Shown piece by piece: positions 481 through 54,564 of a stretch of DNA of 64,000 nucleotides. The stretch is from Actinomycetes bacterium (GTDB lineage: Bacteria; Actinomycetota; Coriobacteriia; Anaerosomatales; Anaerosomataceae). The notes beneath the pieces are model-generated. The model had not been told where the DNA came from. It made no database searches and saw only the letters and a program-made list of their open reading frames with translations. The stretch covers positions 1-64,000 of the forward strand of contig JAJFTR010000037.1 of assembly GCA_021372825.1 (NCBI GenBank). The letters run 5' to 3'. How positions within the stretch are numbered: the stretch's first letter is position 1; each line of letters starts with the position of its first letter. Made by a program: the position numbers and the translations under genes.

Positions 481-1848
481 ATGCTTGACAGTGACAGCGC
501 AGCTCACCTCGAGGACGAGATCGGAGCGTGGCGCGATTATCTTGGCAAGAGGCAGGCGATCCACACCGCCGATGTCGACGAGCTCGAAGACCATCTTCGG
601 GCGCAGTTGGCACAACTGATAGAGGCGGGACTCGCCGCTGACGAGGCGTTCCTGATCGCGGTGAAGCGTGTGGGAGACCTGGACGCCGTGTCGCGCGAGT
701 TCGCGCGCGAGCACTCGGAGCGTCTCTGGAAGCAGCTGGTAGTAGGCGGGACTGACGCTTCGGGGTCTTCGGCGGCGCGAAAAGACGGCGTCGTGGCGAT
801 CTCGCTCGCTGTTGCGGCGGCAGCGCTCATCAAGCTGCCGGCCCTTTTTGGCATCACGATGAGCGAGGACGCCGGCTTCTATGGGCGGAACCTCAGTCTG
901 TTCGTCCTACCTGTACTCGCGGCGTACTTCGCGTGGAAGCGCGGACTCGAGGGTGCTCTGGTGCGCAGGATCGCAGCCGTGTTCGTGGTCGCGGCTGTGG
1001 TGGCCAACGCGTTCCCGTTCGTTCCCGGAGGATCCACCGAAGCACTCACGGCGCTGCACCTGCCGATAGCACTGTGGCTCACGGTGGGACTGGCGTATGC
1101 GGGTCACCGTTGGAAGGACGGCGCCGCCCGGATGGACTTCATCCGGTTCTCTGGCGAGTTCGCCATCTACTACGTCTTGATCGCGCTCGGTGGGGGCGTG
1201 CTCATGGCGTTCATGGCGATGATCTTCCAGGCCATCGGGATCGATGTCGAGCCGTTCTTCGAATCGTGGCTGCTTCCGTGCGGCGCGGTGGGCGCTGTGA
1301 TCATCGCGTCATGGCTGGTCGAAGCCAAGCAGGCGGTGATCGAGAACATGGCCCCTGTGCTCACGCGGCTGTTCACCCCGCTTTTCGCGGTTGCGCTGAT
1401 CACGTTCCTTGGCGCTGTCGCATGGACGGGCCGCGGAGTGGACATAAGCCGAGACGTGCTCATCGCGTTCGATCTCTTGCTCGCCGTGGTGCTCGCGCTC
1501 TTGCTGTACTCCGCCTCGGCACGAGACCGCCAGTCGCCGCCGGGGCTCTTCGACGTACTGCAGGTGGCTCTGGTGGTGAGCGCCCTTCTTGCCGATGCGG
1601 TGGCGCTTTGGGCCATCGCCGCGCGCATCACTGAGTTCGGCTTCACTCCCAATCGGGTCGCCGCTCTCGGGGAGAACCTCGTACTTCTCGTCAATCTGGG
1701 CTGGTCGGCGGTGCTGTACACGCGCTTCCTGCGCAACCGCGGTCCCTTCTCGGCCGTAGAGAGGTGGCAGACCAGTTACGTACCCGTCTACGGCATATGG
1801 GCGGCGATCGTGGTCGTGGTCTTCCCGCTGTTGTTCGGGTTCTCGTGA
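481..1848 (+). CDS. Permease-prefix-domain membrane protein
   Basis: A 455-residue protein with a soluble N-terminal domain (about residues 1-85, rich in Asp/Glu, containing VDELEDHLRAQLAQL and AVKRVGDLDAVSREFA). This resembles the 'permease prefix' domain found in front of PadR-associated membrane proteins. The rest, from about residue 98, is very hydrophobic with roughly ten membrane segments. No transporter signature, ATPase or catalytic motif is visible. AAGGAG upstream supports the ATG. It starts 3 nt after the PadR gene, so it is likely controlled by it. Function unknown; envelope stress or drug response is a guess from family context. Confidence 0.7.
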   Translation: MLDSDSAAHLEDEIGAWRDYLGKRQAIHTADVDELEDHLRAQLAQLIEAGLAADEAFLIAVKRVGDLDAVSREFAREHSERLWKQLVVGGTDASGSSAARKDGVVAISLAVAAAALIKLPALFGITMSEDAGFYGRNLSLFVLPVLAAYFAWKRGLEGALVRRIAAVFVVAAVVANAFPFVPGGSTEALTALHLPIALWLTVGLAYAGHRWKDGAARMDFIRFSGEFAIYYVLIALGGGVLMAFMAMIFQAIGIDVEPFFESWLLPCGAVGAVIIASWLVEAKQAVIENMAPVLTRLFTPLFAVALITFLGAVAWTGRGVDISRDVLIAFDLLLAVVLALLLYSASARDRQSPPGLFDVLQVALVVSALLADAVALWAIAARITEFGFTPNRVAALGENLVLLVNLGWSAVLYTRFLRNRGPFSAVERWQTSYVPVYGIWAAIVVVVFPLLFGFS

Positions 1849-8404: not shown

Positions 8405-8716
8405 ATCCCATAGGGGAATGGCGACGACGGGGAGTAGTAGAGGTCAATCCTCGCTCCAGAGAGCCGGGGGTGCTGTGAGCCCGGCGCAGGACGCTTCGAA
8501 TCTGGCCCCCGAGCCGCCCGGAAGAACGCACCGGAGCGAAAGCGCGGACGACCTCCGCTGAGCGCCGGGACAAGTAGACCGGGTCGGTGGCATCCGTTAT
8601 CTGCCGCATGAGAGGGCGCACGCATATGCAGCGTGCGTCAAACGGGGTGGTACCGCGGGAGCGCAGCTCTCGTCCCTGGTCGGGACGACGCATGCGCCAT
8701 CGCGGTCTTTTCTTTC
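8405..8716 (+). ncRNA. T-box riboswitch leader upstream of ilvD
   Basis: A long leader with the defining T-box sequence GGGGTGGTACCGCGGG at 8644-8659. The 5' part contains a stem I core with AGTA in GGGGAGTAGTA, and a loop-E partner GAA at 8498-8500, so the specifier should follow at about 8500-8504. The reading there is CGAATCTGG. Directly after GAA it would be TCT, but shifts of one either way give ATC (Ile, 8500-8502) or CTG (Leu, 8502-8504), both sensible for this operon; Ile is my first choice. The leader ends in a hairpin and T-run, implying control by transcription termination in response to uncharged tRNA. No reading frame of note lies in it. Confidence 0.9.
8661..8716 (+). terminator. 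T-box intrinsic terminator before ilvD
   Basis: CGTCCC (8671-8676) pairs with GGGACG (8682-8687) across a short TGGTC loop, and GCGCA (8661-8665) can pair with TGCGC (8692-8696). The hairpin is followed by a T-rich run TCTTTTCTTTC (8706-8716). The T-box sequence just 5' of it would form the competing antiterminator. Confidence 0.65.
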
Positions 8717-51775: not shown

Positions 51776-52408
51776 TCAGAAGTCGAATCGATCGTGGTCG
51801 CGCTCCTGCTCGACGTTGGCCGCCACCGCGTACATCAAGCTCTGCAGGATCGGCTCTTGATCGGGCCGCGCCCACGCGCGCTGCCATATGTCATAGGCCT
51901 CCGCATACCAGGCTTCCTCAAGATAGGTGAGCCACTCGGTGTTCCACACGTCACCGTGGCCACCGTAACCGCCCTTGGTGTAGATACCGGCGCGGTCGAA
52001 CTCCTCGGCCACCTTGTCGAGCAGACCGACCATAGGTGCGTCGCCGTATGGTGCGAGCCGGTTGAAGATGTCCACCAGGTACACATCTTGCCACTGCGTC
52101 GCCCTCAGAAAGTCACCCGAGAAGCCTGGTGCGTCCGAGTACAGCGCGCGGACGCCAAGTGACTTCACGTGGCTGAGCCCCATTTTCTTGTCGGCCGGCC
52201 ATAGCTGGACGTAACCGTTGGAGTCGAGCCACTCGATGGTCACGAGCATGAGGCCCTTGCACCATGACCGACAGTCGACCTTGGTACCCTGCGGCGTCCG
52301 CACGCCGAAGTAGAGCCCGCCGCCAGGGGCGATCAGACGGCCTCCACACAGGTAACACTTCGCTGCAGCCGAGAACTCGATGCCGTTGGGTGTCTGGATG
52401 TCGGTCAT
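51776..52408 (-). CDS. Unknown protein with CxxC...CxxxC motif
   Basis: A 210-residue protein of no family I recognise. The N-terminus has four cysteines arranged as KCYLCGG (Cys18, Cys21) and VDCRSWCKG (Cys46, Cys50), which suggests a zinc ribbon or a redox site. The rest is acidic and rich in Trp/Tyr (YVQLWPADKKMG, EEAWYAEAYDIWQRAWARP) without signal peptide or membrane segment. The start after GGGGGGAAGACG is favoured over an upstream open frame. It begins 22 nt after the selenoprotein stop and is followed 35 nt later by the DUF2207 gene, so all three are probably co-transcribed. Confidence 0.65.
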   Translation of the reverse strand: MTDIQTPNGIEFSAAAKCYLCGGRLIAPGGGLYFGVRTPQGTKVDCRSWCKGLMLVTIEWLDSNGYVQLWPADKKMGLSHVKSLGVRALYSDAPGFSGDFLRATQWQDVYLVDIFNRLAPYGDAPMVGLLDKVAEEFDRAGIYTKGGYGGHGDVWNTEWLTYLEEAWYAEAYDIWQRAWARPDQEPILQSLMYAVAANVEQERDHDRFDF

Positions 52409-52430: not shown

Positions 52431-52817
52431 TCACTTGAGCGCGTCGAGCTCCTTACGCAGACGGTCTTCTGGCAGGGCCCCTGCCTCCATGAGTGCGACG
52501 CTCCCATCTGCGTTCACGAACACGAACGTCGGGACGTACTTGGCGCCGAGCTTGTTGGCGAGCTCCTGCCCCTCGGTGCTGGTGTCTACGTTGTACAAAC
52601 GGAACTCCACTTTTCCCTCATACTCTGGCTTGAGCCTGTCGACCACAGGCTTGACTTCCTTGCAGGAGGGTCACCAATCCGTGTAGAGCTCCACCATCAC
52701 GGGCGTGCCGTTGGTGGGGACCTGCGCCGTGGAACCTCCACCCGAGCTCGAACAGCCCCCAAGGGGTGTGAGCGCCAGTCCTACGAGCAGAGCGATGATC
52801 GCTGCGCGCCATGCCAT
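52431..52817 (-). CDS. Selenocysteine-containing thioredoxin-like lipoprotein
   Basis: A 128-residue protein if the UGA at 52671-52673 is read as selenocysteine (residue 49). Residues 1-22 are a lipoprotein signal (MAWRAAIIALLVGLALTPLGGC, lipobox Cys22). After a Ser/Gly linker comes a thioredoxin fold: PVMVELYTDW-U-PSCKEVKP, i.e. a WUxxC in place of WCxxC, then VVDRLKPEYEG, VEFRLYNVDTSTEGQELA and the cis-Pro loop KYVPTFVFVNADGS. No frameshift is needed; the frame is open on both sides of this single UGA, and a SECIS-like hairpin lies 20 nt downstream. The ATG has GGAGGACCAC upstream. Probably a thiol:disulfide reductase on the outer face of the membrane. Partners: the Cys-motif protein and DUF2207 protein downstream. 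Confidence 0.88.
52633..52651 (-). promoter_or_regulatory. Bacterial SECIS element
   Basis: On the coding (minus) strand AGCCTGT pairs perfectly with ACAGGCT across the loop GGTCG. The stem begins 20 nt after the UGA codon and the loop is 27-31 nt after it. Bacterial SECIS elements lie within the coding region just downstream of the UGA and carry a G-rich apical loop; the E. coli fdhF element has GGUC in its loop, as here. SelB and tRNA-Sec genes are not in this window. Confidence 0.85.
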
Positions 52818-52846
52818 GTGGTCCTCCGTTCGTTGGTCACCGAACT

Positions 52847-52852: not shown

Positions 52853-52965
52853 TGCCCCGCGCGCCTTGGTGGGCGCCCTGAGAGTCTCATACCTGCGCAA
52901 CGACCTTGCGCTAGACTGACTACCGAGGGGGCCAGCCACCCCAGCCGCGTGTGGAAGGATCCGTG

Positions 52966-54564
52966 ATGCGCGTCGCGCTTGCACAAGTCGATCCCACGGT
53001 GGGCGACATCGACGGCAATCTGGTCCTCGCCCTCGAGTCGGCTCGCCATGCCGCGGCCCTTGGCGCGGACATCCTCGTGTTGCCAGAATTGGTGCTGACC
53101 GGGTACCCGCCAGAGGACCTTCTCGGCAAGCAGCACTTCGTCGATCGAGCGATGGAAGCCACGCGCATGTTCGCGGCTGAGACCGCGTGCCCTGCTTTGA
53201 TCGGCACGGTTCACCGTGACGAGGCCGGTCTGCATAACTCGGCGGTGTATGCGCACGACGGGCGGATCGACGCCGTGTACCACAAGCGGATGCTCCCCAA
53301 CTACGGCGTGTTCGATGAAGAACGCTACTTCGAGCCGGGACGGTGTGACGGGATCATCGAGGTCAACGGCGTCACATGTGGCGTGACGGTCTGCGAGGAC
53401 GTCTGGTATGCCGAGCCGGTCATGCGGCTGGCGGCTCAGGGTGTCCGCGTCGTCTTCAACCTGTCCGCATCGCCTTTCTTCGCCGGTAAAGGACTCTCGC
53501 GTGAGCGGATGCTGGTGCGACGTTCGATCGAGTCCGGTGTGTGGATGGCCTACTGCAACCTCATCGGCGGTCAGGACGAGCTCGTCTTCGATGGCCGGTC
53601 GGTGGTGGTCGCGCCCGACGGGACGGTCGCTGGTCGTGCGGAAGGGTTCGTCTCGGAGTTGCTCGTGGTCGAGGTGGATCCGGGGGGCGCTCCCCGTCCC
53701 CAGCGTGTAGCGCCGAGAACGGAGCATGAGGCCGAAGTCTATGAGGCTCTCGTCCTGGGACTGCGCGACTACATCCACAAGAACGGATTCACCGGCGTGG
53801 TTCTCGGACTTTCCGGGGGGATCGACTCTGCGCTCACGGCGACGATCGCTACCGATGCGCTTGGGTCCGAGAACGTCCGAGGCGTTCTCATGCCCTCGCG
53901 GTACTCCTCGCCCGGGAGCCTTGTCGATGCACAAGAGCTCGCCGATGCACTCGGCATCGAGACCTACCGAATCTCCATCGAGAGGCCCTTTGACGCGATG
54001 CGTCAGGCCCTCGCGGGCGTCTTCGAGGGGCTTGGCGAGGATGTGACCGAGGAGAACCTGCAGGCCCGTGTGCGTGGCACCATCTTGATGGCGCTATCGA
54101 ACAAGTTCGGATGGCTTGTGCTTGCGACCGGCAACAAGAGCGAGCTCTCGGTGGGGTACAGTACGCTGTACGGGGACATGGTGGGCGGTTTCGCGCCGAT
54201 CAAAGACGTCTTCAAGACGCGGGTCTATGACCTCGCGCGCTGGCGGAACGAGAAGAGCCATGTCGTCCCGGAAGCGACTCTCACCAAGCCGCCGAGCGCC
54301 GAACTGCGGCCAGGGCAGACCGACCAGGACACACTACCTCCTTATGACGTCTTGGACAGGATCCTCATCGAGTACGTGGAGCAGGACCGGTCAGTGGAGC
54401 AGATCGCGCAACTGGGGTATGATGCCGCACTGGCCGAGCGGATCGCGCGCCTGGTGGACGCCGCCGAATACAAGAGGCGTCAAGGTCCCATCGGCATCAA
54501 GATCACTCCCAAGGCCTTCGGCAAGGACCGCCGCATGCCTATCACCAACAGGTTCCGGGGGTAG
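52966..54564 (+). CDS. nadE: NAD+ synthetase, glutamine-dependent
   Basis: A 532-residue two-domain enzyme amidating deamido-NAD+. The N-terminal nitrilase-type glutaminase (about 1-260) has the catalytic triad Glu in LVLPELVLTGYPPEDL, Lys in YHKRMLPNYGVFDEERYFEPG and Cys in GVTVCEDVWYAEP. The C-terminal synthetase (from about 265) has the ATP-binding LGLSGGIDSALTATIATDALG, and ATGNKSELSVGYSTLYGDMVGGFAPIKDVFKT. GTGGAAGGAT precedes the ATG; an upstream GTG at 52951 would cover that site. Ammonia is channelled between the domains in known homologues. Confidence 0.95.
   Translation: MRVALAQVDPTVGDIDGNLVLALESARHAAALGADILVLPELVLTGYPPEDLLGKQHFVDRAMEATRMFAAETACPALIGTVHRDEAGLHNSAVYAHDGRIDAVYHKRMLPNYGVFDEERYFEPGRCDGIIEVNGVTCGVTVCEDVWYAEPVMRLAAQGVRVVFNLSASPFFAGKGLSRERMLVRRSIESGVWMAYCNLIGGQDELVFDGRSVVVAPDGTVAGRAEGFVSELLVVEVDPGGAPRPQRVAPRTEHEAEVYEALVLGLRDYIHKNGFTGVVLGLSGGIDSALTATIATDALGSENVRGVLMPSRYSSPGSLVDAQELADALGIETYRISIERPFDAMRQALAGVFEGLGEDVTEENLQARVRGTILMALSNKFGWLVLATGNKSELSVGYSTLYGDMVGGFAPIKDVFKTRVYDLARWRNEKSHVVPEATLTKPPSAELRPGQTDQDTLPPYDVLDRILIEYVEQDRSVEQIAQLGYDAALAERIARLVDAAEYKRRQGPIGIKITPKAFGKDRRMPITNRFRG

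Follow-up and report, generated by a model that had tools for sequence, protein, structure and literature searches.

A gene on the minus strand of the analyzed window, a stretch of 64,000 nucleotides from a genome of the order Anaerosomatales (Coriobacteriia), very probably encodes a selenoprotein that would act as a CcdA-fed, membrane-anchored, extracytoplasmic reductase with a WUxxC active site. The sequence shows the selenoprotein gene to be genuine, with a predicted selenocysteine (Sec) residue and a SECIS element inside the coding region. This assignment draws on the open frame, the covarying SECIS, the Sec machinery of the genome, the thioredoxin fold, and the way in which the family is distributed. 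The finding concerns a conserved protein family that is split by a standard gene caller throughout a little-studied order of anaerobic bacteria.

Reading frame, fold, and relation to known families

The coding sequence (52431..52817, minus strand) starts at an ATG, and the limits of 52817 to 52431 given in the initial annotation were correct on re-reading. It comprises 128 codons plus a stop when its single internal UGA is translated as U, and the product reads MAWRAAIIALLVGLALTPLGGC-SSSGGG...VMVELYTDW-UGA-PSCKEVKPVVDRL...DALK-stop, with a signal region (MAWRAAIIALLVGLALTPLGGC), a linker, and a thioredoxin domain in that order. The start codon is preceded by a GGAGGA-like ribosome binding site (52822..52827, minus strand, approximate limits; AACGGAGGACCAC-ATG), with GGAGG a few bases 5′ of the ATG. 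The internal UGA is codon 49 (52671..52673, minus strand) in the context DWUPSC; alignment with thioredoxins places it at the first Cys position of WCxxC, where it had been proposed to lie, and its predicted Sec is the first residue of the UxxC motif. The terminal stop (52433-52431, minus strand) is also a UGA. Standard gene calling indeed misses the N-terminal half, since the list of open reading frames yields only a 71-aa fragment with an internal GTG start.

Pfam Thioredoxin (PF00085) matches residues 33 to 125 with 54.8 bits (cut-off, 23.5; UGA read as Cys) over profile positions 14 to 102 of 103, and other thioredoxin-like Pfam families gave weaker matches. This match spans the UGA, in line with the earlier description of a lipoprotein signal, linker, and thioredoxin fold interrupted by that codon alone. 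The family profile A1 delimits the domain, with its motif U49-P-S-C52 and cis-Pro position P96, to residues 36 to 128 (52434..52712, minus strand); alignments A1 and A2 show invariant columns in it, P96 among them. One row of A1 (L047) is inexact, which affects only the A1 profile searches, while A2, the alignment used for structure, was taken directly from DNA. The AlphaFold2 model has pLDDT values above 90 for most of residues 31 to 128, with the first 30 residues not confident, and both the PDB sequence matches and the best fold matches are thioredoxins (fold TM-score, 0.73-0.83, target-normalised). Residues 1 to 22 (52752..52817, minus strand) form, by inspection, a lipoprotein signal peptide with the lipobox LGG-C22, read by eye as MAWRAAIIALLVGLALTPLGG-C, and this Cys falls in the same alignment column as the lipobox Cys of the other stand-alone homologues, which is conserved. 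The product is accordingly a predicted lipoprotein on the strength of this motif, and its presumed extracytoplasmic location follows from the same signal sequence.

Thioredoxins with a UxxC motif are a listed selenoprotein family (PMC9312934, PMC13188914), and Sec-thioredoxins are known from deltaproteobacteria, Carboxydothermus, and Treponema (PMC1794560). The window protein resembles the listed family (PF00085) in its thioredoxin fold, in the Sec that replaces the first active-site Cys, and in the bacterial SECIS within the coding region, but it belongs to a predicted extracytoplasmic lipoprotein form, and its family, many members of which are fused to rhodanese, is conserved in most sampled genomes of one Coriobacteriia order. 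It scores 55.8 bits against a cut-off of 96.8 for the thioredoxin equivalog TIGR01068 (NCBIfam) and is therefore not the housekeeping thioredoxin; among the families matched, it falls below every NCBIfam cut-off. TsoB (NF045694), a rhodanese/DsbD fusion-like selenoprotein, likewise combines rhodanese, thioredoxin-like parts, and Sec, but its model of 572 positions is DsbD-like with two Sec residues, whereas the fusions found here carry Sec in the thioredoxin part and have CcdA as a separate gene; with a cut-off of 805, the window protein scores 25.7 bits and one fusion 40.5 bits. ResA and StoA are extracytoplasmic, membrane-held reductases of the thioredoxin fold that are fed by CcdA. The window protein would share this location, fold, and expected electron supply, but it has Sec in place of Cys and lies below both cut-offs (ResA, 25.3 of 170; StoA, 27.6 of 210). 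SaoT (NF040730) is also a UxxC thioredoxin-like selenoprotein; its model gave no match to the window protein at an E value of 0.001, and relatives of the window protein reach at most 27 bits against its cut-off of 65. No report of a Coriobacteriia or lipoprotein Sec-thioredoxin was found in the literature collection searched, and the word "lipoprotein" is absent from the main text of PMC9312934 and PMC13188914. What is new here is a predicted extracytoplasmic lipoprotein form whose position next to nadE is conserved, together with membrane-anchored rhodanese-Sec-thioredoxin fusions, two of which adjoin ccdA, and the spread of a Sec-thioredoxin family through an order.

Architectures, gene neighborhoods, and predicted role

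The family occurs in two main forms: stand-alone lipobox proteins like the window protein, and proteins in which an N-terminal membrane segment or lipobox is followed by rhodanese and Sec-thioredoxin domains. The rhodanese domain (PF00581) scored 73-77 bits in the three fusions tested. In an 88-row tree each form tends to cluster, yet the two are intermixed (11 to 13 changes between them), and few forks are resolved.

The synteny marker of the stand-alone form is nadE, the gene for a glutamine-dependent NAD synthetase, which is the divergent neighbor of the window gene (52951..54564, plus strand). Homologues of nadE adjoin stand-alone Sec-thioredoxins in 17 loci, some of them fetched twice (Pfam-confirmed in L095), and the divergent arrangement recurs in many genomes of the same family. 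Downstream, a gene for a CYLCGG... protein without a Pfam match (51776..52408, minus strand) starts 22 nt after the thioredoxin stop, and several other loci have a relative of this gene downstream of their Sec-thioredoxin; the two genes are possibly co-transcribed. The search for an operon partner gave no candidate, as the downstream gene has no Pfam match and the DUF2207, trp, and nadE genes offer no functional link. Elsewhere in the window, a T-box leader was recorded at 8415-8680 on the plus strand (Rfam RF00230, 94.3 bits).

The fusions adjoin P-II/ammonium-transporter (amtB) genes in many loci, or an ABC transporter gene. A ccdA gene lies directly downstream of the rhodanese-Sec-thioredoxin fusion in L106 and L109; a general association of ccdA with the Sec-thioredoxins was discarded, since a motif screen across the loci examined turned up these two only. 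The host genome has one ccdA above the cut-off, on another contig than the window gene. The context of the window gene thus gives no substrate, because ccdA is unlinked and the neighbors (trp, nadE) are unrelated. In three more distant Actinomycetota loci (L176, L180, and L184), a Sec-thioredoxin lipoprotein gene is preceded by a trxA of the cytoplasmic type and followed by a gene for a CsoR/FrmR-family repressor, all on the same strand, and no ccdA was seen between trxA and the Sec-thioredoxin gene.

The most likely role, as we infer it, is that of a reductase of disulfides or persulfides that works outside the cytoplasm and receives its electrons through CcdA. With SelB on the hairpin, whose stem begins 19 nt after the UGA, ribosomes would read codon 49 as selenocysteine; after export and lipidation on Cys22, the protein would sit at the outer surface of the cytoplasmic membrane. 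The thioredoxin fold and the motif suggest that Sec49 would attack disulfides, or persulfides and polysulfides, and that Cys52 would resolve the resulting selenenylsulfide. Cytoplasmic thioredoxins would most likely supply the electrons, with CcdA as the conduit across the membrane to the Sec-thioredoxin, as for ResA/StoA-type proteins, a predicted route that draws on the single ccdA of the host, the adjacency in two relatives, and the biology of ResA and StoA.

Persulfide or polysulfide is a reasonable but unproved candidate substrate, for which the rhodanese fusions, the CsoR/FrmR-family neighbor, and respiration of thiosulfate or sulfur (PMC9686372) are the grounds. In a narrower form of the preferred explanation, sulfane sulfur (persulfides, polysulfide, or thiosulfate-derived) would be the main substrate, handled together with a partner rhodanese domain. 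We regard this as possible but doubtful. An N-terminal rhodanese domain whose loop is of the CATGxRS type is present in approximately half of the UGA homologues, distant homologues adjoin the repressor gene, and thiosulfate, sulfur, or Fe(III) is respired by cultured members of Anaerosomatales (PMC9686372); the window protein, however, has no rhodanese domain and no adjoining sulfur genes, and the fusions themselves adjoin amtB/P-II or ABC-transporter genes rather than sulfur genes. The rhodanese-Sec-thioredoxin fusions suggest selenium-based extracytoplasmic sulfur chemistry. A broader and equally tentative proposal is an order-wide, membrane-anchored selenothiol system of anaerobic Coriobacteriia, comprising both the stand-alone Sec-thioredoxin lipoproteins and the rhodanese-Sec-thioredoxin fusions, both of which would work with CcdA in extracytoplasmic persulfide/polysulfide reduction with selenium as the reactive atom; in this system the SECIS would dictate the residues V-V-D, L-V-E, and I-V-N of the thioredoxin fold more than protein function does.

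It is improbable that the selenoprotein is instead an extracytoplasmic disulfide oxidase or isomerase of the DsbA/DsbC type. The extracytoplasmic location would suit such an activity, the WUPSC motif differs from the WCGPC of classical reducing thioredoxins, and Sec-containing DsbA-like and DsbG-like proteins provide a precedent (PMC9312934). The domain, however, is a classical thioredoxin domain without the DsbA helical insert, and both the ccdA adjacency in two relatives and the cytoplasmic-type trxA on the same strand near distant homologues point to reduction. In general, too, a selenol favors a low redox potential.

Selenocysteine machinery and distribution among relatives

The host genome (G000; 1.94 Mb, 99.5% complete) encodes selD, selA, selB, and tRNA-Sec in a row at 12.6-17.6 kb of contig C3. 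The initial annotation had proposed a search for these four genes and held that a lack of selB, selD, and tRNA-Sec would speak against Sec; all four are present, in this one cluster. The selB product scores 388.7 bits, above the curated cut-off, and tRNA-Sec scores 73.4 bits, above the Rfam gathering score, and was also called by ARAGORN; selD and selA were identified by eye from the list of open reading frames. In the host selD (12.57-13.61 kb of C3, locus L009), a TGA in frame occupies the usual position of Sec (MESVRLTQLSTKSG-U-AAKWG), and the gene appears from its sequence to encode a selenoprotein itself; a strong hairpin was observed soon after this TGA. A formate-dehydrogenase-like gene on contig C88 (locus L135, around 1840-1845, minus strand), which falls below the Fdh-alpha family cut-off, likewise carries a TGA in frame at the canonical Sec site (ARI-U-HSSTVAGLGR), and a hairpin that contains GGUC lies after it.

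A membrane-tethered UxxC thioredoxin had been considered unusual; in the host order it is instead common. An in-frame-TGA homologue was found in at least 54 of the 61 order genomes, host included (at least 53 of the 60 relatives), and the matches listed for the rest of the class are without TGA, while more distant UGA homologues occur elsewhere in the phylum, many with lipoprotein-like starts. In 83 distinct loci, the UGA stands at the residue of the window gene, with a Cys codon three positions further along; in 78 of these loci Pro comes directly after the UGA. Interchange of U and C, which homologue alignment had been expected to reveal, is seen in a sister subfamily between close rows (L126 with U, L118 with C). 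This second, membrane-anchored thioredoxin-like subfamily has an HSxxU/CxxC motif with Sec or Cys (L118, L126, L127, and L131), and its four loci also hold an ArsP_1-type permease gene. A further Sec-thioredoxin-like subfamily with an FGxxU motif (L112, L113, L116, L120, L122, L128, L129, and L130) was observed in several families of the order.

In close pairs, rates of nonsynonymous change (dN) are far below synonymous rates (dS) both before and after the UGA; for L021 and L022 the respective values are 0.029/0.556 upstream and 0.033/0.322 downstream (the upstream comparison of L025 and L026 was out of register and was excluded). Such purifying selection on the two flanks speaks against gene decay.

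In seven genomes with a UGA-thioredoxin (G009, G013, G020, G025, G026, G034, and G053), selA, selB, and tRNA-Sec were not found. Five of these are less complete or contaminated, and the main exceptions, G013 (98% complete) and G009 (96%), are real puzzles, although one assembly gap could remove all Sec genes, because they are clustered in the window genome. Conversely, G023, G029, G044, G051, and G060 have Sec machinery but no UGA-thioredoxin among the matches listed, and G040 and G045 have neither among the matches listed. Correlation between Sec-thioredoxin and Sec machinery was set aside as uninformative evidence, since both are nearly universal and the absences are mostly due to incomplete assemblies.

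Hairpin covariation and its imprint on the protein

Downstream of the UGA lies a perfect hairpin (AGCCTGT-GGTCG-ACAGGCT; 52633..52651, minus strand; -11.2 kcal/mol) with a 7-bp stem and the loop GGUCG at 52644-52640. The initial annotation had described this hairpin correctly but placed it 20 nt after the UGA; the distance is 19 nt to the stem and 26 nt to the loop. Published limits for bacterial SECIS elements are a loop of 3-9 nt, an upper stem of 4-16 bp, a G within the first two positions of the loop, a distance of 16-37 nt from the UGA, and an MFE of at most -7.5 (PMC13188914). The window hairpin, with a 5-nt loop, 7 bp, 26 nt, and -11.2 kcal/mol, lies within these constraints, which agrees with the earlier remark that its placement is that of known bacterial SECIS elements. 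An Rfam scan of the window gave no match to a SECIS family.

Taken alone, one such hairpin says little, as 65% of the sequences obtained by synonymous recoding contain one; the generic hairpin test, which most Cys controls also pass, was dropped as evidence. Decisive for the SECIS is the covariation across relatives rather than the lone hairpin. A full 5-bp stem is kept in 77 of the 83 UGA loci, against a mean of 4.1 and a maximum of 11 under synonymous recoding. Standard pairing at the five stem pairs holds in 95.9% of cells (shuffle mean, 85.5%; maximum, 88.0%) and falls to 28-50% when the register is slid by 1 to 3 bases. Double-sided stem changes number 52, compared with at most 24 in 1000 column shuffles of the 83 loci, and one stem pair shows G-C, A-U, C-G, and U-A types across loci. 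The two stem pairs that vary most require at least 11 and at least 13 changes on a tree from which the hairpin codons and the active-site residue had been left out. The loop GU is kept in 80 of 83 loci, while its flanking bases mostly vary as a pair (G-C, 61; C-G, 13; A-U, 1); conservation of the GU alone could be protein-driven, because it lies within a nearly invariant Val codon. The SECIS of E. coli formate dehydrogenase H has a GGUC loop. The apical loops of the window hairpin and of the host formate-dehydrogenase-like gene share this GGUC, but the loops of the family also include CGUG and AGUU, with the GU kept and its flanks covarying. The hairpin deviates in L113, L114, and L121, and in L126, L127, and L131, which differ in local sequence, a GGUC hairpin is found in another register.

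This evidence also bears on whether the UGA is decoded at all. The appearance of a 71-aa fragment alone in the standard list of open reading frames, and the several UGA-bearing relatives without detected Sec machinery, might suggest a true stop, with mere fragments of a decaying gene or a sequencing error. Such an origin is very unlikely: 83 distinct loci share the UGA at this residue, close pairs show low dN/dS both before and after it, the hairpin that follows it covaries, and the genome has the Sec machinery. The initial annotation had named truncated or frameshifted relatives without a conserved hairpin as the observation that would count against it; the hairpin instead covaries across relatives. 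That a code change or general suppression inserts an ordinary amino acid is hardly credible, for although the frame is open with any residue at the UGA, UGA also terminates the window gene and other family members, the tRNA with a TCA anticodon is called tRNA-Sec by both ARAGORN and Rfam, and the hairpin lies within SECIS limits.

With codon 49 taken as Sec, the family offers an unusually clean natural experiment on a coding-region SECIS, in which base-pair compensation predicts coupled amino-acid changes. The RNA signal forces coupled residue changes (V..D, L..E, and I..N), as the first base of codon +9 after the UGA and the last base of codon +11 form a base pair in the hairpin. Val at +9 (GUG/GUC) is found mostly with Asp or other C-ending codons at +11, and Ile (AUC/AUA) with U-ending codons, while Leu (CUG or UUG) is accompanied by Glu (GAG or GAA). 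The pairing of Leu at +9 with Glu at +11 is exclusive, occurring in seven of seven loci and in none of the other 76, with an effective number of events made smaller by kinship and a few origins suggested by the tree.
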